Assembly: GCA_020846875.1 (NCBI GenBank)
Contig: JADLDB010000036.1
Span: forward strand, 62,001 to 126,000
DNA: 64,000 nucleotides
From: Myxococcales bacterium
Lineage (GTDB): Bacteria; Myxococcota; Myxococcia; Myxococcales; Myxococcaceae
Direction: 5' to 3'
Shown here: positions 5,432 through 31,752 of the stretch, piece after piece
Numbering within the stretch: the stretch's first letter is position 1
Layout of the letters: each line of letters opens with the position of its first letter
The notes under the pieces: model-generated
Told to the model about the DNA's origin: nothing
The model's input: only the letters and a program-made list of their open reading frames with translations
Databases searched by the model: none
Program-made: the position numbers and the translations under genes

Positions 5432-6070
5432 TTAGAAGCCGGTGCCGAAGCGGAAGGTGAGCGTGGAGTAGCCGGCCTCGGCGAAGAGCTCCGCGACCAG
5501 CTCCAGGTGGTTGAGCAGCGCGAGCGGCGCCAGCAGCAGGGTAGCCAGGACGTTGAGCGTGTCGCCCGAGAAGCCGCGCTGCTCGTCGAAGGGCCGGAGG
5601 AAGAGGAGCTTCTTCGTCCACCAGGGCACCGTCACGCCGGCGCCGACGCGCACTCCGAAGAGGCTGGTGCGGCTGGCCGGCTCGTTGGGCGACGGAGGGC
5701 TCGCCACGTCTCCGAAGCCTACGTCCGTCCCCCAGAAGGGTGTCACCCGCCCGAAGACCAGCACGTCCGGGAGCACGTCGTCGTCCCGCGCCGCGAAGCT
5801 CCACGCATAGCCACCGCGCACCTGCACGCCCCACGACGCGCGGTACGGGACGGTGCCGAGCTGCTGCGCGAACTCGAAGCCCACGCCACCGAAGGGCGTC
5901 CCCCACGGGGGGCGCAGCGGGCCGACGGCGATCCCCAGGTACAGCGCGAAGGCCGCCGCGTTGCGCTGCCCCAGGCCGGCGACGAAGGACAGATCGGTCT
6001 GGAGCGGCATGATCCGGCGTTCGGCGAGCGGCGCCTGCGCCAGCGCAGTGCACAGGACCAGGGCGATCAC
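5432..6070 (-). CDS. Secreted or outer-membrane protein of unknown function
   Basis: A 212-residue protein. Seen: a short hydrophobic N-terminus ending in an AQAPLA-type signal cleavage site, then alternating Gly/aromatic-rich strands (GVQVRGGYAWSFAARDDD, GVRVGAGVTVPWWTKK) and a C-terminal GYSTLTFRFGTGF that ends in Phe, as outer-membrane beta-barrel strands often do. The GTG start overlaps the upstream kinase stop in a GTGA, so the two genes are translationally coupled and probably share an mRNA. Inferred: a small outer-membrane beta-barrel or barrel-associated protein. The coupling hints at a functional link to the kinase, but nothing in the sequence shows what that is. Confidence 0.7.
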   Translation of the reverse strand: MIALVLCTALAQAPLAERRIMPLQTDLSFVAGLGQRNAAAFALYLGIAVGPLRPPWGTPFGGVGFEFAQQLGTVPYRASWGVQVRGGYAWSFAARDDDVLPDVLVFGRVTPFWGTDVGFGDVASPPSPNEPASRTSLFGVRVGAGVTVPWWTKKLLFLRPFDEQRGFSGDTLNVLATLLLAPLALLNHLELVAELFAEAGYSTLTFRFGTGF

Positions 6071-7320
6071 GGCTTGTCTGGCCGCTTCCAGTTGATGACG
6101 GTGGGGCGGTCCCCGGGCGGGAACTCCTCGTCCTCGTCGAAGAGCGTCGCTGCGTCCACGCGCGGCTTCACTGCAGTAACGGCCGTGGGCTTCGACGATC
6201 CGTCCTTCATGGGGCTGAAGGCCGGCATGAGATCCGTCCCCTGCGTGGACTTCGCGGCGGCGATCTTGCCCGCGCCCGGTTGGGTGGGCCGCTTGCCTTC
6301 CGGGACGCGCCCCGGCGTCGCGGCCTTCCGGGGAGGGACGGCCGGCGCCTGCGGCTTTTCGACCAGGGCGGGCTGGGCCTTCATCGCCCGGGCCTTGCGA
6401 TCGAAGGCGCGCGCGAGCTCACCGAAGCGCGGCCCGCCCGGCGTGGTGCCAACCCCGGCGGAGGCGAGCTCGGCCTCCTTGAGGACCGCGAGGGCGACCT
6501 CGGCCGTGGAGGGACGCGCGGAAGGCTGCTTCTCCAGGAGCCAGGCAACCCACGCCTCGAGCTCGATGGGGACGTCGGGGCGCCTGGAGCGCAGCGGCGG
6601 CGCGGGCTGGGCGAGGTGGGCCTGGGCCAGTTGGGCGCCGCCCTTCACGGTGAAGACGGGGGAGCCGGTGACCATCTGGAAGGCGAGGCAGCCCACCGAG
6701 TAGAGGTCGCTCGCGGGCTCGACTTCCCCGGCGAGGTGCTCGGGCCCCATGAAGCCAAGGCTGCCCAGCGTCATCAGCGGCTGGGTGAGCGCCTCCTCCC
6801 GGCCGGCGCGGCGGGCGATCCCAAAGTCCACCAGCTTCACCCGGGGCAGCCCCACTGTCGTGTCGCAAAGGAAGACGTTGCTGGGCTTCAAGTCCCGGTG
6901 AATGACGCCGGCCCGGTGCGCGGCGTCGAGCGGCTCGAGGATCCCCGCGAGGAGGTGAAGGACCTCGCGGACGGCGAGCTGCCGGTGGCCCTTCAGGTGC
7001 TCGAGCAGGGAGTGCCCTTCGAGGCGCTCCATCACCAGGTAGGGCCGTCCGTCCGGCAGCGTCCCGGCGTCGAAGATGTCGACGATCCCCGGGTGGGAGA
7101 TGGCGTTGACCGCGCGCGCCTCCTCGAGGAGGCGCTGGGCCCCGTTCAGATCATCCTGCGCCGCGGACTTGAGCACCTTCACCGCGACGCGCTTGCCGAT
7201 GAGCTGATGGACGCCTTCGTAAACCTCGCCCATCGCGCCGGCGCCCAGGCGCCCGGTGAGGCGATAGCCCTTGATGGCCGGACCGATGGCCTTCCCTCCC
7301 GTCGAGCGCCCCGTCGCCAT
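6067..7320 (-). CDS. Ser/Thr protein kinase (Hanks type, soluble)
   Basis: Eukaryotic-like Ser/Thr kinase, 417 residues. Seen: glycine loop GRLGAGAMGEVYEG near residue 23, the ATP-binding Lys in VAVKVLK, catalytic HRDLKPSN near 145, VDFGIARR, and a GFMGPE motif where APE is expected, all in order. All catalytic residues I looked for are present, so it should be active. After about residue 290 the chain is Pro/Ala/Lys-rich and low complexity with no membrane segment, so the protein is probably cytoplasmic, unlike the PASTA-type kinases. Start: ATG at 7320, immediately before the first kinase residues. It is divergent from the RNase J gene (48 bp apart) and coupled to the downstream envelope gene. 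The substrates are unknown. Confidence 0.93.
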   Translation of the reverse strand: MATGRSTGGKAIGPAIKGYRLTGRLGAGAMGEVYEGVHQLIGKRVAVKVLKSAAQDDLNGAQRLLEEARAVNAISHPGIVDIFDAGTLPDGRPYLVMERLEGHSLLEHLKGHRQLAVREVLHLLAGILEPLDAAHRAGVIHRDLKPSNVFLCDTTVGLPRVKLVDFGIARRAGREEALTQPLMTLGSLGFMGPEHLAGEVEPASDLYSVGCLAFQMVTGSPVFTVKGGAQLAQAHLAQPAPPLRSRRPDVPIELEAWVAWLLEKQPSARPSTAEVALAVLKEAELASAGVGTTPGGPRFGELARAFDRKARAMKAQPALVEKPQAPAVPPRKAATPGRVPEGKRPTQPGAGKIAAAKSTQGTDLMPAFSPMKDGSSKPTAVTAVKPRVDAATLFDEDEEFPPGDRPTVINWKRPDKP

Positions 7321-7368
7321 GCGGCCGGCGAGTCTACGCCTTCGGCGCTCGTTGCTACAGTCGCGCCG

Positions 7369-9018
7369 ATGCTGAAAGTGACGCCGCTGGGGGGCTTGGG
7401 CGAGGTAGGGATGAACACGCTCGTCCTCGAGCACGGCGCTGAGCGCGTCCTGATCGACTGCGGGCTGATGTTCCCGCGCGGCGACCTGCCCGGGGTGGAG
7501 ATCATCCTCCCCGACTTCGGGGCCCTGCTGGACGCGCCCGACTCGCTCAAGGGCGTCGTGTTGACGCACGCGCACGAGGATCACCTGGGCGCGCTCCCGT
7601 GGCTGCTGCGCGAGCTGAAGGTGCCGGTGTGGGGTACGCCTTTCACCCTGGCGCTGGCGCGGCACCGCCTGGAAGAGGCCGGCGTGGAGGCCGAGCTGCG
7701 CGAGCTGGGTCCGCGAGAGGAGTTCCGCGTGGGCGAGCAGTTCCGGGTGGAGCCGGTGCGCGTCACGCACTCCGTCCCCGACTCGGTGGGGCTGATCATC
7801 CGTACGGCCACCGGCACGCTGGTACACTCTGGCGACTTCAAGCTGGATCTCTTTCCGGTCGATGGACAGCTCACGGATCTCGAGCGGCTGGGCGAGGTGG
7901 GCGACGAAGGCGTCCTGGCGCTCCTCTCGGACTCCACCAACGCGGAGGTCCCCGGCAGCACCGGCAGCGAGCGGGTGGTGCAGGACACCTTCGAGCGCCT
8001 GGTGTCGACCGCGCGCGGGCGGGTGGTGATCGCCGTCTTCGGCTCCCACCTGCACCGGGTGCGGCACGCGGTGGACCTGGCGCGGCGGCTGGGACGGCGG
8101 GTCGTGCTGGTGGGGCGCAGCCTGCAGCGCAACGTGGAGTTGGCCCAGAAGGTGGGGCTGCTCGAGGCGTGGCGCGACGTGTTGGCCGGCGCGGACGCGG
8201 TGGGCCAGGTCTCTCGAGAGCGGCTGCTGGTGTTGTGCACCGGCGCGCAGGCGGAGCCGCGGTCGGCGTTGATGGGCATGCTGTCGGCCGAGCCGGGGCC
8301 CTTGCGCATCGAGGCGGGGGACCTGGTGATCCTCTCCTCGCGCACCATCCCCGGGAACGAGCCGCTGGTGACCGCGCTGATCAACCGGCTCCTGGCCCGA
8401 GGCGCGCGCGTCGTCTACCCGGCCATCGAGCCCGGCGTGCACGTCTCGGGGCACGCGGCGCAGGACGAGCAGCGGCGGCTGCTGGAGGTGGTGCGTCCCC
8501 GCCACTTCGTGCCCATCCACGGCGAGCTGCGACACCTGCACAGCCACCTCCAGTTGGCGCGCCAGCAGGGCCTGCCCGCCGAGCGCACCTTCCTGATGAC
8601 GGACGGAGACGTGGTGGGCTTCGCCAGGGACTCGGCCACCACCCTGGGTCGCGTGCCGGTGGGGACGCGGGCGATGCGACGCGAGAGCGTGGCGCCCATC
8701 AACCCGGAGGCGCTGGGAGAGCGGCGCGCGCTGGCGGAGTCGGGCGTGGTGGTGGTGGTGGCGGTGCTGCAGTTGGGCGGAGGGCGCGTGGTGTCGGGGC
8801 CGACGGTGCACGCGCGGGGGCTGCCCACGGCGGAGACGGCGGCGCTGGGGCTGGCCACCGAGGGGGCGGCGCTGGCGCTGTCCGAGTTGTCGGAGGCGAT
8901 CCGCGGCGACGACGAGCGGGTGCGGGAGGCGCTGGTGCGGGGCGTGCGGAGAGCCTTCAAGCAGCTCTTCGGGACACGCCCCGCAGTGATGCCGGTGGTG
9001 CTGCGGGTGCAGGCGTGA
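7369..9018 (+). CDS. rnj: Ribonuclease J (metallo-beta-lactamase/beta-CASP)
   Basis: Zinc-dependent endo- and 5'-3' exoribonuclease in mRNA decay and rRNA maturation; cytoplasmic. Seen (549 residues): N-terminal LGGLGEVGMNTLVLE, the metal-binding HAHEDHLGALPWLL near residue 65, VHSGDFKLD, SDSTNAEVPG, beta-CASP motifs including SSRTIPGNEP, and HVSGHAAQDEQ followed by PIHGELRHL, the order typical of RNase J. The length matches the family. Start: ATG at 7369, which gives the canonical N-terminus. The gene is divergent from the kinase, and its stop lies 3 bp from the convergent stop of the next gene. Nothing is truncated and no key residue is missing. Confidence 0.95.
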   Translation: MLKVTPLGGLGEVGMNTLVLEHGAERVLIDCGLMFPRGDLPGVEIILPDFGALLDAPDSLKGVVLTHAHEDHLGALPWLLRELKVPVWGTPFTLALARHRLEEAGVEAELRELGPREEFRVGEQFRVEPVRVTHSVPDSVGLIIRTATGTLVHSGDFKLDLFPVDGQLTDLERLGEVGDEGVLALLSDSTNAEVPGSTGSERVVQDTFERLVSTARGRVVIAVFGSHLHRVRHAVDLARRLGRRVVLVGRSLQRNVELAQKVGLLEAWRDVLAGADAVGQVSRERLLVLCTGAQAEPRSALMGMLSAEPGPLRIEAGDLVILSSRTIPGNEPLVTALINRLLARGARVVYPAIEPGVHVSGHAAQDEQRRLLEVVRPRHFVPIHGELRHLHSHLQLARQQGLPAERTFLMTDGDVVGFARDSATTLGRVPVGTRAMRRESVAPINPEALGERRALAESGVVVVVAVLQLGGGRVVSGPTVHARGLPTAETAALGLATEGAALALSELSEAIRGDDERVREALVRGVRRAFKQLFGTRPAVMPVVLRVQA

Positions 9019-9021
9019 GGA

Positions 9022-15475: not shown

Positions 15476-16246
15476 TCACAGCTTCCGGGCCGCGGCCTCG
15501 CTCTCCAGCCAGTCCTTCAAGAAGGCCTTCACCGCCGGGTGGGTGGAGGCCTTGAACTCCTCGGGCGCGGCCGCCCCGATGATCTTCCCCTCATGCAGCA
15601 GGCCCACCCGGTCCGCGATGCGGAAGGCGGTGGGGAGATCGTGGGTGATGATGAAGGCCGTCGCGCCCAGGGCCTTCTGCGCGGTGACGATCGCGTCGTC
15701 CACCGTATCGGTGGTGAGCGGATCGAGGCCGGCCGTCGGCTCATCCGCCAGCAGCACCCGCGGCTTCATCACCATCGCCCGGGCGAAGGCCACCCGCTTG
15801 CGCATGCCGCCGGACAGCTCGCCCGGCAGCTTCTCCGTGGCCTCCGCCAGGCCGAGCAAGGCCAGCACCTCGGCGACGCGCCGCTTCACCTCCGGCTCCC
15901 GCACGTGGCCCAGCTCGCGCAAGGGGAAGGCGACGTTGTCGAAGACGCTCATCGAGTCGAACAGCGCGCCCGCCTGGAACTGGATGCCCAATTCCTTGCG
16001 GACCTCCATCAACTCCTCGCCGTCGCACGCGGTGAGATCATGCCCGTCGATGATCACCTGGCCCGAGTCCGGCTTGAGCAGCCCCTCGAGGTGCTTCATC
16101 AGCACCGTCTTCCCGCTGCCCGAGGTGCCGAGGAGCACGAAGGTCTCGCCTTCGTGGACGGTGATTGAGAGATCCTCGAGGACGCGCGCGTCGCCGAAGC
16201 GCTTGCAGAGGCCCTTCACGACGATCATCGGCGCCTGGTCGCTCAC
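15476..16246 (-). CDS. ABC transporter ATP-binding protein, MlaF/Ttg2A-like
   Basis: ATPase likely to power retrograde phospholipid or toluene-type transport with an MlaE permease and an MCE protein. Seen (256 residues): Walker A GTSGSGKTVLMKH near residue 42, Q-loop GIQFQAGALFDSMSV, signature LSGGMRKRVAFARA, Walker B VLLADEPTAGLDP and switch His in ITHDLPTAF. The GMRKRV form of the signature and the GALFDSMSVFDNVAFPL stretch are characteristic of MlaF. Start: GTG at 16246 is chosen; ATG at 16228 would remove six residues. Odd: no MlaE or MCE gene lies beside it, so its permease must be elsewhere. It is divergent from the RelE-like fusion gene (65 bp between starts). Confidence 0.88.
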   Translation of the reverse strand: MSDQAPMIVVKGLCKRFGDARVLEDLSITVHEGETFVLLGTSGSGKTVLMKHLEGLLKPDSGQVIIDGHDLTACDGEELMEVRKELGIQFQAGALFDSMSVFDNVAFPLRELGHVREPEVKRRVAEVLALLGLAEATEKLPGELSGGMRKRVAFARAMVMKPRVLLADEPTAGLDPLTTDTVDDAIVTAQKALGATAFIITHDLPTAFRIADRVGLLHEGKIIGAAAPEEFKASTHPAVKAFLKDWLESEAAARKL

Positions 16247-16311: not shown

Positions 16312-17571
16312 ATGAGCGAAGCCCCGGTGAGCCCCACGGATCTGCTGCCCCCAAAGGGCGGCGACGCGCCGTTGTCCGCGCTGGGGCGCGACGAGCTGTC
16401 GGTGTTCCTCTACCTGGCCTTCACCGACGCGGAGCTGACCGCCCTCTTTCGGGAGCTGAAGCTGTCCGTCCCCGGGTACCGGCTGGAGAAGCTGTCCGGC
16501 GTGCAGAAGGCCGACACGTTGGCTGATGAGATCCGCGCCCGGCCCGACGCGCGCGCGCCGGTGATCGCCTTGCTTGCGAAGATCTACGAGTTCCCCGCGC
16601 TGGACATCGTGTCCCTCTCGGCGCCGGTGGCCGACGAGATCGGCCTGCTCGCGGTGGAGGAAGACGCGACGGTGCGCATCCTCTGGCGCCTGCTGGCAGA
16701 CCCGCAGCAGGAGGTGCGCCAGACGGCCACGCCGATCCTCCAGTCCCTGGCCCGCACGTACTACGGCGCTGGCCCGGCGCAGAAAGGGCCGCCCGCGGTG
16801 GACGCGTCGGCGAGGCTGGCCCCACCTCCGCAGGACGCCGCGCCCCGAGACGAGTCGGCGGAGCTCAAGGCCGCGAAGAAGGAGGCCCGCGAGGCCGTCC
16901 AGGCGATGGAGAAGGCCCAGGCCAAGGCCGAGTCGCTGGCGCAGCAGCTCAAGGACCTGCGCGCCGCGCTGGCCGAGGTGTCACGCGAGCGCAACCTGTC
17001 CAAGCGCGAGGCGGAGAAGACGGACACCGCGCTGGAGCGAACGAAGGAGCAGCTCGAGAAGGCCAAGGGCAAGGTGACGCGCGCCGAGCTGGAGAAGCTG
17101 AAGAAGGACTACGAGAAGGCCAGCGAGTCGGTGGCGGCGCTGACGGCTCGCGAGGAGCGCTGGGCGGAAGAGAGGCAGGCGTTGCAGCAGGAGCTGGAGG
17201 CGCTCAGGCGCACCCCGGACGCGGCGCCCCAGGCACCGGCCGCCCCGGCGAGCGATGAGGGCCCGGTGGAGGAGCTCCCGTCCACCTGGCTCAAGCCGAA
17301 CTTCACCCAGGAGTTCTACGACTCCCTCGACGGCTGGGACGCGCGGCTGCAGCGCGCCGCCTTCAAGCAGGCGTACCTCTTGTCGGAGAACCACCGGCAT
17401 CCCTCGCTGAGGGCGATTCCGCTGGAGGGGCTGCCCGGCTACTTCCGCGTGCGCGTGGCGACCGACGTGCGGCTGATCTATCGGCGCGCCGAAGGCACCA
17501 GCGTGGAAATCCTCTCGCTCATCGACCGCGAGGATCTCGATCGCTACGTGCGCCAGGCGAAGACGCGCTGA
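16312..17571 (+). CDS. Coiled-coil protein with C-terminal RelE/ParE toxin-like domain
   Basis: A 419-residue three-part protein. Seen: an N-terminal helical domain (about 20-150) with LSVFLYLAFTDAELTALFRE and RILWRLLADPQQEVRQTATP, the latter resembling a HEAT-type repeat; a long charged coiled coil (about 183-305); a Pro/Ala linker; and a C-terminal domain from about 326 to the end. That last domain (FYDSLDGWDARLQRAAFKQA, HRHPSLRAIPLEGLPGYFRV, RVATDVRLIYRRAEG, EILSLIDREDLDRYVRQ) follows the RelE/ParE pattern strand by strand. Known: RelE-family toxins are normally about 90-residue stand-alone proteins with an adjacent antitoxin. Here the fold is the tail of a large protein with no antitoxin gene beside it. 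Inferred: a regulatory or defence-type fusion; the function is unknown. Confidence 0.8.
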   Translation: MSEAPVSPTDLLPPKGGDAPLSALGRDELSVFLYLAFTDAELTALFRELKLSVPGYRLEKLSGVQKADTLADEIRARPDARAPVIALLAKIYEFPALDIVSLSAPVADEIGLLAVEEDATVRILWRLLADPQQEVRQTATPILQSLARTYYGAGPAQKGPPAVDASARLAPPPQDAAPRDESAELKAAKKEAREAVQAMEKAQAKAESLAQQLKDLRAALAEVSRERNLSKREAEKTDTALERTKEQLEKAKGKVTRAELEKLKKDYEKASESVAALTAREERWAEERQALQQELEALRRTPDAAPQAPAAPASDEGPVEELPSTWLKPNFTQEFYDSLDGWDARLQRAAFKQAYLLSENHRHPSLRAIPLEGLPGYFRVRVATDVRLIYRRAEGTSVEILSLIDREDLDRYVRQAKTR

Positions 17572-17576
17572 TCCCC

Positions 17577-20500
17577 TCACACGCGGAAGAGGACGCCGCG
17601 CGTCGGCAGTCCCGTCGCGGCCTGCACGGCCCGCACGTACGCCGCGGCCTGGGCCTCGTAGGCGGCGCGGTGCGCCTCCAGATCCTCGTCCGTCTTGAAC
17701 TCCACCACGGTCCAGCCGCTCGCGTCGCGGAAGGCGAGGTCCACGCTGCCTTCCACGTAGTCCGCCGGCCCCAGCACGTCGACGATCCCCCGCTCCCGGC
17801 GCACCTGCGTCGCCCCGCGGGCCGCCTGCATCAACGGGTGGGCCAGCGCGGCCAGCACCGCCTCCACCGCCGCGGACTGTTCCCCCGGGCTCGCGAGCAA
17901 CGCGCGCCCCTGCGCCGCCACGGCGTTCGTCACCAGCGCGCGCGAGGCGTCCAGCGGCGCCACCGCCAGCACCGCGTGCACCAGCTCACCGAAGCGGCGC
18001 CCCTTCGGCCGCCCCGCGCGCGGCACGCCCGAGTCCTCGAGGCCGATGGTGCCGGGAGGAGGGGCCTCGTCCAGCTCGCGCGCCACCCGCACCCGCTCCG
18101 ACGGACGGCCCCCTGCCTCCAGCGCCTTCGCGTGGGAAAGCCGCCAGTCCTCCCACGCCCGCTGACTGTCATCGCTGGGGCCGACCACCTCCACCAGCGC
18201 GTCGGACGCCTGGAGCCCGCCGCCCGCCTCGAGCTCGAGCCGGAGCGGCTTCGGCCCCCACCACACCACCCGGTTCTTCCCCGTCTCGCTCCGGTGCAGG
18301 CCGGGCAGCGGGACGCAGGACGGGACGCCGCCCTCGCGGCCGACGATCACGTCGCGCCCCAGGTCCGGGCACCCGGGGGCGGGCTTGGGATCGTGCGCGC
18401 CTCCCTCGGGCGGGTACACCGACGGGTAGAGCACCTCGGTCCAGGTGTCGTCCCAGCGCTTGTCGCCCACCGCGGGGATCACCAGCAGGTCCTTCGCGCG
18501 CGTCGCCGCCACGTAGGTGATCCGCACCGACTCCTCGTGATCTCTCGCGCGCACCTCCTCCTCGTGCTCGCGCAGCTCCACCGGCAGGCAGCCGCCCAGC
18601 GCGTGCACCCACAGCCCGCGCTCGGGGTCGACCCAGTGCGACGGCTCCTGCCAGTTCGCGTTGGCGGTGGGCTCGGCGAGGATCACCACCGGGAACTCCA
18701 GCCCCTTCGCGGCGTGCACCGTCATCATCCGCACGCCCTCGGTGCCCTCCTCGACGATGGGCGCCTCGGGGGCCTCGCCCTCCTCCGCCTCGTCCTGCAG
18801 CGCCTCCACCACGTCGCGGAAGCTGGTCGATCGCCGCTCCAGCCGCCGCGCCACCTCCGCCAGTTGCAGCACGTTGGCCAGGGCCTGGGCCCCGGCGTTC
18901 CAGAAGGCGATGCCGGCGTGCGCGCGGGTGGCCTCGAGGAAGGCGTGCAGCGTGGCGGACACCGGGCGGCGGTTGCGGAACAGGTGCAGGTCGCGCAGCA
19001 CGGCCAGCGCCTCGGCCACCGCGCTCGCGTCCTCGGACAGCGTCAGGCCCTCCAGCGGGCGCAGCGGGTGAAAGTGGCCGAGCTCGTGCCGGTAGATCAG
19101 CAGCTGCTCGTCCGCCAGCGCGAAGAAGGGCCCTCTCAAGGCGGCGTAGACAGAGAGCTCGTCGTCCGGCCGCTCGATGGCCATCAGCGCGGTGCGCAGC
19201 GCCATCACCTCCTCGCGCACGTGAAAGCTTCGGCCCCCCACCAGCACGTGCGGCACGCCGCGGGCCTCGAGCGCCTGGGCGTACGGACGGGGAATGTCCA
19301 CACCGCCCCACCGGCGCAAGCGCTTGAAGAGGATGCACACGTGCCGCGGCTCGATCGGCACCCGCTTGCCTTCCTCCTCCACCGTCCAGCCGCTCTCGCG
19401 GACGAGCCACGCGATGAAGGCGCCCACCGTGTCCGACAGGCTGCTCTCCACCCGCTCCTTGGTGACCCAGCCGCGCTCGTTGTGGACGCGCGCGGGAGGC
19501 AGCGCCACCACCGACGGCTGCTTGTCGTACGCGTCACGCCACCGGCCCAGGTGCACGTAGGCGGGGTGCAGGCCGTTGCCCAGCTCCATCACCCGCTCGA
19601 AGGCGCCGTTGACCGCCGCCTGGATGCCCGGGGTGCTGCGGAAGCTGGTGGACAGGAAGACGACCGAGGCGCCGTGACCGGCGAGGTGCCGCTTCACCCG
19701 CTCGTAGAGCAGCACGTCGGCGCGCCGGAAGCGGTAGATGGACTGCTTCGGATCGCCGACCACGAAGAGCTTCCCCGGCACGGGCCGGACCTCGAACGGC
19801 TCCTCGACACCGGGATCGTCCGCTGCCAGCAGCAGCACCAGCTCGCTCTGCAGCGGATCGGTGTCCTGGAACTCGTCGACGAAGAGGTGGGTGAAGCGCC
19901 GCTGCAAGGACTCGCGCACCGGCCGGCTGTGGCGCACCAGGTCGCGCGTCTTGATCAAGAGATCCACGAAGTCCAGCGCGCCCACCCTGGCCTTCTCTGC
20001 TTCGTAGGCGGCGACCACCGGCAACAGCTCCTCGTGCAGGCAGGCGGCGAGGTGCGCCTCGGCGCGGCGGAGGAAGCCGGTGAGCTCTTCGTAGAGCAGC
20101 CCGCGCTCGGCGGACACCGTGTCCACGGTGACGCCCTGGAAGCGCACGCCGCCCGGCTTCCACGTCCACCGGCGCTGATCGCGGGACAGGTCCTTGAGCT
20201 GGGCCTCGAGCCCGTCGTAGTCGCGCGGCGACACCGCTTCCCGGTGCGCGAGATCGTCGCTGAAGCGCCGCACCGCGGCCAGACACTCACCCAGCTTGCT
20301 GTCCGGGGCCTGCCAGGTGAGCTGCCGGGCGCGCTCGGCCAGGGCGCCCAACCGCGGCAACAGCGCGTCGATCGCGGCCTCGCGCGCGAAGGGCTCCCTG
20401 CGCCAGGGCGCGCTGAAGTCCCGGTGCTCGACCAACTGCTGCACCGCGGAGAAGAGCACCCGGCGCGGAGGATCGTCGCCGCGGCCCTTCGGACGCCGGC

Positions 20501-31180: not shown

Positions 31181-31477
31181 TCAGCGGCGGTGATAGCCGG
31201 CTTCACGCTGGTGGCGCACGCCAAGCACGCGGAGCACGTGGTCGACCTCGTCGCATTGGTACAGCGCGACGTAGCCGGTCTTCCCCACGGAGATGATCAG
31301 CTCGCGCAGTTCGCGATCGTTCGGCACGAGGCGTCCGATGTGCGGGTGCTCGTCGAGCACCGAGACGGCGCTGTGGATGAGACCGAGCTGCTCCAGTGCC
31401 CATTGATCGGACGCGCCGAGGTGAAACTGGAAGATGCGCTCCAGGTCGATGAGCGCGTCCTCGGCGAAGACGATCAC
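31181..31477 (-). CDS. ParE-family toxin of a type II toxin-antitoxin pair
   Basis: A 98-residue RelE/ParE-superfamily protein. Seen: AEDALIDLERIFQFHLGAS (N-terminal helix with the family's A-x-x-D-L-x-x-I pattern), VLDEHPHIGRLVPND, and RELIISVGKTGYVALYQCDE with VDHVLRVLGVRHQRE, which gives the (G)YVALY strand and the VLGVRHQRE end seen in ParE toxins. Known: ParE toxins act on gyrase; RelE members cleave mRNA. ParE is favoured because of the sequence pattern and the RHH antitoxin. The GTG start overlaps the antitoxin stop (GTGA), so toxin translation is coupled to antitoxin translation. It looks intact. Confidence 0.9.
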   Translation of the reverse strand: MIVFAEDALIDLERIFQFHLGASDQWALEQLGLIHSAVSVLDEHPHIGRLVPNDRELRELIISVGKTGYVALYQCDEVDHVLRVLGVRHQREAGYHRR

Positions 31478-31752
31478 GTCAGCTTCCGCGCCTTCGGCCG
31501 GCGCGGCTTCTCACCACCAGCCCGTGCGCGGAGGTAGCGGAACACCTCGTCGGCCGGAATGCCGACGCCTGTCCTCTTCATGCGCGCGAGTCGGCGGCGG
31601 GCCGCGGCGTGGAACTCTGCCTGGGCCTCTTCTGCCTCGATCTTCTCGCGGATGGCTTCGAGCATGAACGCGTGCGCGCTGGTGTCGCGCTCCTCCACGA
31701 GCCGAGACAGGCGCACCAACAACTCCGAGGGCAGCCTCAGGGAGACGGGCAT
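31474..31752 (-). CDS. RHH-type antitoxin
   Basis: A 92-residue ribbon-helix-helix DNA-binding protein. Seen: MPVSLRLPSELLVRLSRLVE, the typical beta strand and first helix of a CopG/ParD-type fold; then RDTSAHAFMLEAIREKIEAE (second helix with the S-x-x-A-F-x-x-E-A pattern); then a helical tail and a basic C-terminus (YLRARAGGEKPRRPKARKLT), the expected toxin-binding part. The start ATG at 31752 lies five bases from a perfect 10-bp inverted repeat, the likely operator. Known: such antitoxins repress their own operon. It is coupled to the toxin by GTGA. Confidence 0.88.
   Translation of the reverse strand: MPVSLRLPSELLVRLSRLVEERDTSAHAFMLEAIREKIEAEEAQAEFHAAARRRLARMKRTGVGIPADEVFRYLRARAGGEKPRRPKARKLT

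Follow-up and report, generated by a model that had tools for sequence, protein, structure and literature searches.

The window analysed here is a stretch of 64,000 nucleotides from a bacterium of the Myxococcaceae (contig JADLDB010000036.1, positions 62,001 to 126,000), and the gene under study is an open reading frame on its forward strand that starts with ATG, encodes 419 aa and is present in one copy in the genome. Its product is composed of three parts, a helical head, a coiled coil and a RelE-like tail, laid out as follows:

16312–17571, + strand: the whole three-part gene (419 aa, with a C-terminal RelE-like domain)
16345–16776, + strand: N-terminal helical domain (residues 12–155; 45% mean identity in orthologues)
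16675–16755, + strand: HEAT-like stretch (residues 122–148; PF02985)
16858–17208, + strand: coiled coil (residues ~183–299; 27% mean identity; length 109–125 residues)
17284–17571, + strand: RelE-like domain (residues 325–419 and the stop codon; 77% mean identity in orthologues)

On the 5′ side lies a divergent ABC-ATPase (MlaF-like) gene whose GTG start at 16246 leaves the 65-bp gap reported by an earlier, sequence-only reading of this DNA, and on the 3′ side a converging helicase gene resembling AddA has its stop at 17577. With one neighbour divergent and the other convergent, no antitoxin gene adjoins the three-part gene, as that reading had also held, and there is no space for one on either side. 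Consensus promoters and terminators were likewise sought around the gene, and none stood out above chance. Toxins of the RelE family are considered dangerous when no antitoxin accompanies them. Both hallmarks of a type II toxin-antitoxin module are lacking at 16312–17571: there is no adjacent co-directional antitoxin gene, and the protein is not a small single-domain toxin but one of 419 aa with three parts that recur in its orthologues. The same window provides a contrast in an ordinary ParE-type toxin gene (31181–31477, − strand) with an overlapping antitoxin-like gene upstream (31474–31752, − strand).

The last ~90 residues had been read as RelE/ParE-like, and profile searches, structure prediction and fold comparison all agree with this. 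The profile phrog_1213, annotated as "RelE-like toxin", matched 30 of 33 tails (window protein E 5.9e-05; best relative E 1.7e-09), a family-profile match that places the tail in the RelE/ParE superfamily. Among orthologous tails, PF24732 (ParE_like) matched 27 of 29 and PF05016 (ParE_toxin) 12 of 29, and PF06769 was also matched. Taken by itself, the window protein does not reach the curated cut-offs in Pfam (its isolated domain matches ParE_toxin with E 0.0051), but one relative (L071) passes that of PF24732, with 24.5 versus 24.4 bits. When a profile of the tail was searched against the PDB, E. coli RelE was the sole family found up to E 10, with the ribosome-bound structure 4v7k first at E 0.047. 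AlphaFold, given 33 tail sequences, produced a model (pLDDT 85, pTM 0.75) with the order strand-helix-helix-strands-helix, that is, the N-terminal strand, two helices, antiparallel sheet and C-terminal helix of the BECR fold. Foldseek returned 36 matches at E ≤ 0.001, those listed being toxins of the RelE, YoeB, YafQ and ParE types and Cami1, and VIA-align placed the tail among RelE, YoeB, YafQ, ParE and HigB toxins and Cami1, with a top Z of 11.4 for RelK of M. tuberculosis. No different fold emerged from the prediction and comparison that the earlier reading had called for and, as judged from profiles and the predicted structure, the assignment of the tail to a RelE-type fold is secure.

We mapped RelE residues onto the tail with the alignment from the PDB profile search, in which K52, K54, R61, R81 and Y87 of E. 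coli RelE align with R379, R381, R387, R406 and Y412 respectively:

17446–17454, + strand: R379 and R381 (RelE K52 and K54 positions), arginine in 29 of 29
17470–17472, + strand: R387 (RelE R61 position, the transition-state arginine), invariant in 29 of 29 and also found in the SEC-C long form described below
17527–17529, + strand: R406 (RelE R81 position, the proposed general acid), invariant in 29 of 29 and also found in the SEC-C long form
17545–17547, + strand: Y412 (RelE Y87 position, the stacking tyrosine), Y in 25, W in 3 and F in 1

All five positions retain a residue that is basic or aromatic, so that the loss of catalytic positions, which the sequence-only reading had named as grounds for dropping the assignment, is not what we found; the residues are those of a RelE-type mRNase at the R61, R81 and Y87 positions, with basic residues at positions 52 and 54. 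In E. coli RelE, R61A, R81A and Y87A significantly lower cleavage and K52A and K54A do not (PMC2807027), and in M. tuberculosis RelE1 the residues R60, R65, R85 and Y89, equivalent to K54, R61, R81 and Y87, are needed for toxicity (PMC12620021). Moreover, the R381, R387 and R406 positions are arginine in all six very divergent SEC-C relatives, which have few other invariant residues. The stacking tyrosine is not strictly kept, since tryptophan occupies the Y412 position in one family (f6 of the anonymous labels f1–f31 that we use for families) and W or A the aligned position of the long form.

These residues also bear on whether the tail could be a ParE-type inhibitor of DNA gyrase fused to a coiled coil, which would account for PF05016 being among its best Pfam matches and for the ParE structures among its fold matches. 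PF_ParE, however, also includes an RNase, E. coli RelE itself, according to the Gerdes 2025 survey (PMC11980606), and a gyrase inhibitor would be expected to resemble ParE in sequence and to lack the catalytic arginines of RelE, whereas R381, R387 and R406 are all kept. Six ordinary PF05016 toxins are encoded in the same genome, five of them outside the ParE pair of the window, and those that we aligned by eye have L, I or V three residues ahead of the strand tyrosine, where the tail has the arginine R387. Because of this difference, the residues point to chemistry of the RNase rather than the gyrase type, and we consider gyrase inhibition highly improbable.

The main rival to an RNase is a non-catalytic module: the RelE fold would serve solely for binding to the ribosome, rRNA or mRNA, and the protein would be a scaffold or translation factor. 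Having no antitoxin is simplest for a domain that is not toxic; a module of this kind would also fit the laxity at the stacking tyrosine (replaced in the long form by W or A) and a conservation of the tail that extends far beyond the active site (e.g. IDREDLD and HRHPSLRA), as for a binding surface. Nonetheless, three arginines (RelE positions K54, R61 and R81) are invariant even in the SEC-C relatives, which chemistry explains more easily than binding alone, and we regard a purely binding role as less likely.

The N-terminal helical domain with one HEAT-like stretch that had been described from the sequence was recovered through PF02985, which matches residues 122–148 of the window protein (E 0.0084) and 5 of 15 orthologues (best E 9.6e-06); besides this stretch, the head (residues 12–155) matches no named family in Pfam. 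Within the head (window 16345–16776), one orthologue weakly matches EAD2 and another EAD7 (E 0.004–0.006), effector-associated domains that are domains of conflict systems. A coiled coil of ~120 residues (~183–299), also noted in the earlier reading, is borne out by a heptad signal of 1.05, shuffled sequences averaging 0.28 (P 0.0035), and the region is helical in the single-sequence AlphaFold model of the whole protein, a poor model (pLDDT 55) in which the head too is predicted to be helical at low confidence. In orthologues the sequence of the coil is variable, but its length is kept (median 121 residues). Matches to SMC, Rad50 and JetC proteins from PADLOC, NCBIfam and some of Pfam were rejected as coiled-coil matches.

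If this N-terminal part were an antitoxin neutralising the RelE tail in cis, the gene would be a single-gene toxin-antitoxin, and fused antitoxin-toxin genes are indeed known in the superfamily, as the Gerdes survey relates (PMC11980606). The head, however, matches no Pfam antitoxin family, the coil is poorly conserved in sequence though its length is kept, and the single-copy vertical pattern presented below is not that of an addiction module, all of which makes a fused antitoxin distinctly improbable.

Searches with the tail profile also uncovered a second architecture in six genomes of the phylum (G088, G089, G090, G138, G148 and G157). In this long form of ~660–740 aa, a helical head is followed by a SEC-C motif, then a coiled coil and finally a tail resembling RelE. 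Its genes are:

L085, 412–2508, + strand: long-form gene
L086, 1474–3459, − strand: long-form gene
L087, 1501–3564, − strand: long-form gene
L088, 448–2508, + strand: long-form gene
L089, 4–1992, + strand: long-form gene
L093, 1129–3336, − strand: long-form gene

The SEC-C motif (PF02810) was matched at E about 1e-09 in the two long-form proteins scanned. A zinc motif of the SEC-C type, that of SecA, is linked to ribosome binding. In profile comparisons the short- and long-form tails matched with 98% probability, and homology of the two heads, with a probability of 0.2%, was rejected. Since the tails match and the heads are unrelated, RelE tails borne on coiled coils are combined with at least two kinds of head. 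The short form is absent from all six long-form genomes, a mutual exclusion that, with six genomes and ~1 overlap expected by chance, is not statistically meaningful. Two frames of 127 and 168 aa (L073:2271–2651 and L074:2158–2661, both − strand) match the tail profile without a coiled coil and are possibly stand-alone RelE genes.

The three-part architecture recurs within the order, and the homologues retain the RelE domain. The family is present in 41 of 145 genomes, counts that include some fragments at contig ends of draft genomes, and is near-universal in the six related families f2–f7 (38 of 42 genomes) but rare in f1 (3 of 96); none was found in genomes of f8 and f9. As it is missing in 93 of the 96 f1 genomes, the gene is not essential across the order. 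Split fragments aside, it occurs as a single copy per genome. In the gene tree, f2, f3 and f6 each occupy one side of a branch and f1 groups with f7, a topology that, with these three families each on one branch side, agrees with a gene that is vertically inherited and has been lost from most of f1. Beyond the phylum, where one pattern scan of GTDB genomes and collections of plasmids, phages and viral contigs were covered and distant relatives may be missed, the scan gave eleven matches, all labelled as myxobacterial except for one labelled only Deltaproteobacteria, and the plasmid and phage collections and the viral contigs contained no relatives of the tail.

Along with this vertical descent goes strong constraint on the RelE tail. 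Mean identity among orthologues is 77% for the tail compared to 45% for the head and 27% for the coil, and between the window protein and its orthologue in Anaeromyxobacter oryzae the tail, with 76% identity, is more conserved than LexA (64%) or MutS (59%). Because the RelE tail is the most conserved part and inheritance is like that of a housekeeping gene, the family behaves neither as selfish addiction modules nor as defence genes do.

A conserved gene neighbourhood was considered and rejected across families, since it is found only within Anaeromyxobacter, where the three-part gene lies between Lon and metallophosphoesterase genes on one side and LexA, ABC1 and MutS genes on the other. One such stable Anaeromyxobacter block, with Lon, metallophosphoesterase, LexA, ABC1 kinase and MutS, spans L011:1080–14937. 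Otherwise, apart from the three-part gene itself, no neighbour is common to the window and the orthologous loci across families, with one partial exception. This is a large gene at 6070–9021 (− strand) of the window, relatives of which, 33–40% identical over part of its length, lie near several orthologous loci (L084:2281–3828; L012:2–928; L003:1–699) and probably share a common domain. As no neighbour recurs in different families, the MlaF gene, whose closeness the earlier reading had noted, is an incidental neighbour.

Neighbourhood and descent weigh as well on the proposal, already among the options of the sequence-only reading, of an autoinhibited defence effector whose head senses infection and frees the RelE tail to stop translation, as in Cami1. 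The general layout, a sensor followed by RelE, is that of Cami1, which is among the fold matches of the tail, and the two EAD matches in single orthologues would suit such a role. But the protein has no CARF match in Pfam; PADLOC run on the RelE tail gives no match, and all matches listed for the full-length protein fall on the coiled coil or just past its end. Moreover, the neighbours in Anaeromyxobacter (Lon, LexA, MutS, ABC1) are housekeeping genes and no defence neighbourhood was seen; the family is vertical and near-universal in f2–f7, where its inheritance is not patchy as that of defence genes is, and it has no copies in the plasmid and phage collections or viral contigs. The defence option thus found no support, and we consider it improbable. 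The best fit among the earlier options is the domesticated RNase or ribosome-binding module, given that the gene descends along the family tree, is carried as one copy by almost every genome of six families and is most conserved in its tail.

Our preferred explanation, held with moderate confidence, is that the protein is an antitoxin-free RelE-type RNase that would act on ribosomes and be delivered and restrained by its head and coiled coil. As RelE and Cami1 do, the tail would reach into the A site of the ribosome and cleave mRNA at that site; the coiled coil of ~120 residues would probably oligomerise the protein and serve as a tether of fixed length; and the helical, HEAT-like head may dock on the ribosome or on a partner that sets the timing of tail delivery. 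Instead of by an antitoxin, the protein would then be restrained by tethering, recruitment or cis-inhibition, and we infer that the most likely physiological role would be housekeeping cutting of mRNA on stalled or stressed ribosomes. In short, the conserved three-part protein suggests a former toxin turned into a controlled housekeeping enzyme on ribosomes. A wider proposal, which we offer tentatively and as one possibility, is that a myxobacterial RelE has been permanently domesticated as an endonuclease for ribosome quality control or translation stress, with tether and head in place of an antitoxin and in two architectures not found together in the genomes searched. Of the 145 genomes, 142 encode Smr-domain proteins, the family to which the collision nuclease SmrB belongs, and for this reason there is no sign of the three-part protein replacing them, an idea that we considered and found unsupported.

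The protein described here is a multidomain RelE member without an antitoxin that is single-copy and vertically inherited, with active-site positions intact and a tail more conserved than LexA or MutS. With it, one can test directly whether a housekeeping nuclease of the ribosome can arise from a toxin fold, and by what means RelE is restrained when no antitoxin is at hand. In our literature search, which covered few subscription papers, no description of the three-part architecture was found. The Gerdes 2025 survey of mono- and multidomain RelE/ParE proteins exempted many multidomain ones from its analysis, either for want of a recognisable antitoxin gene or domain or because such proteins were too few; the multidomain proteins of the survey resemble ours in having a BECR-fold toxin domain within a larger protein, and the main text of the survey makes no mention of coiled-coil, SEC-C or myxobacterial forms (PMC11980606). 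SmrB, an mRNA endonuclease that is brought to stalled ribosomes via its N-terminal part (PMC10897456), offers a proposed analogy of working only, being of the unrelated SMR fold, and Smr proteins coexist with the three-part protein in these genomes. E. coli RelE is like the tail in its fold, in being the sole family matched by the PDB profile search and in the active-site positions (K52/K54/R61/R81/Y87, here R/R/R/R/Y), but is a single-domain toxin of ~95 aa paired with RelB rather than the tail of a 419-aa protein with no adjacent antitoxin. Cami1, a CARF sensor fused to RelE, is a type III CRISPR effector that cuts mRNA at the A site (PMC11229360). It is the closest characterised design to the three-part protein, since its RelE domain also follows a large regulatory part and it gives a fold match at Z about 9; unlike Cami1, however, the three-part protein has a long coiled coil and vertical inheritance, shows neither a CARF match in Pfam at its N-terminus nor a type III CRISPR locus around it, and is flanked by unrelated genes. 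The three-part protein is a member of the RelE/ParE fold superfamily that belongs neither to a type II toxin-antitoxin module nor to the Cami1 family.
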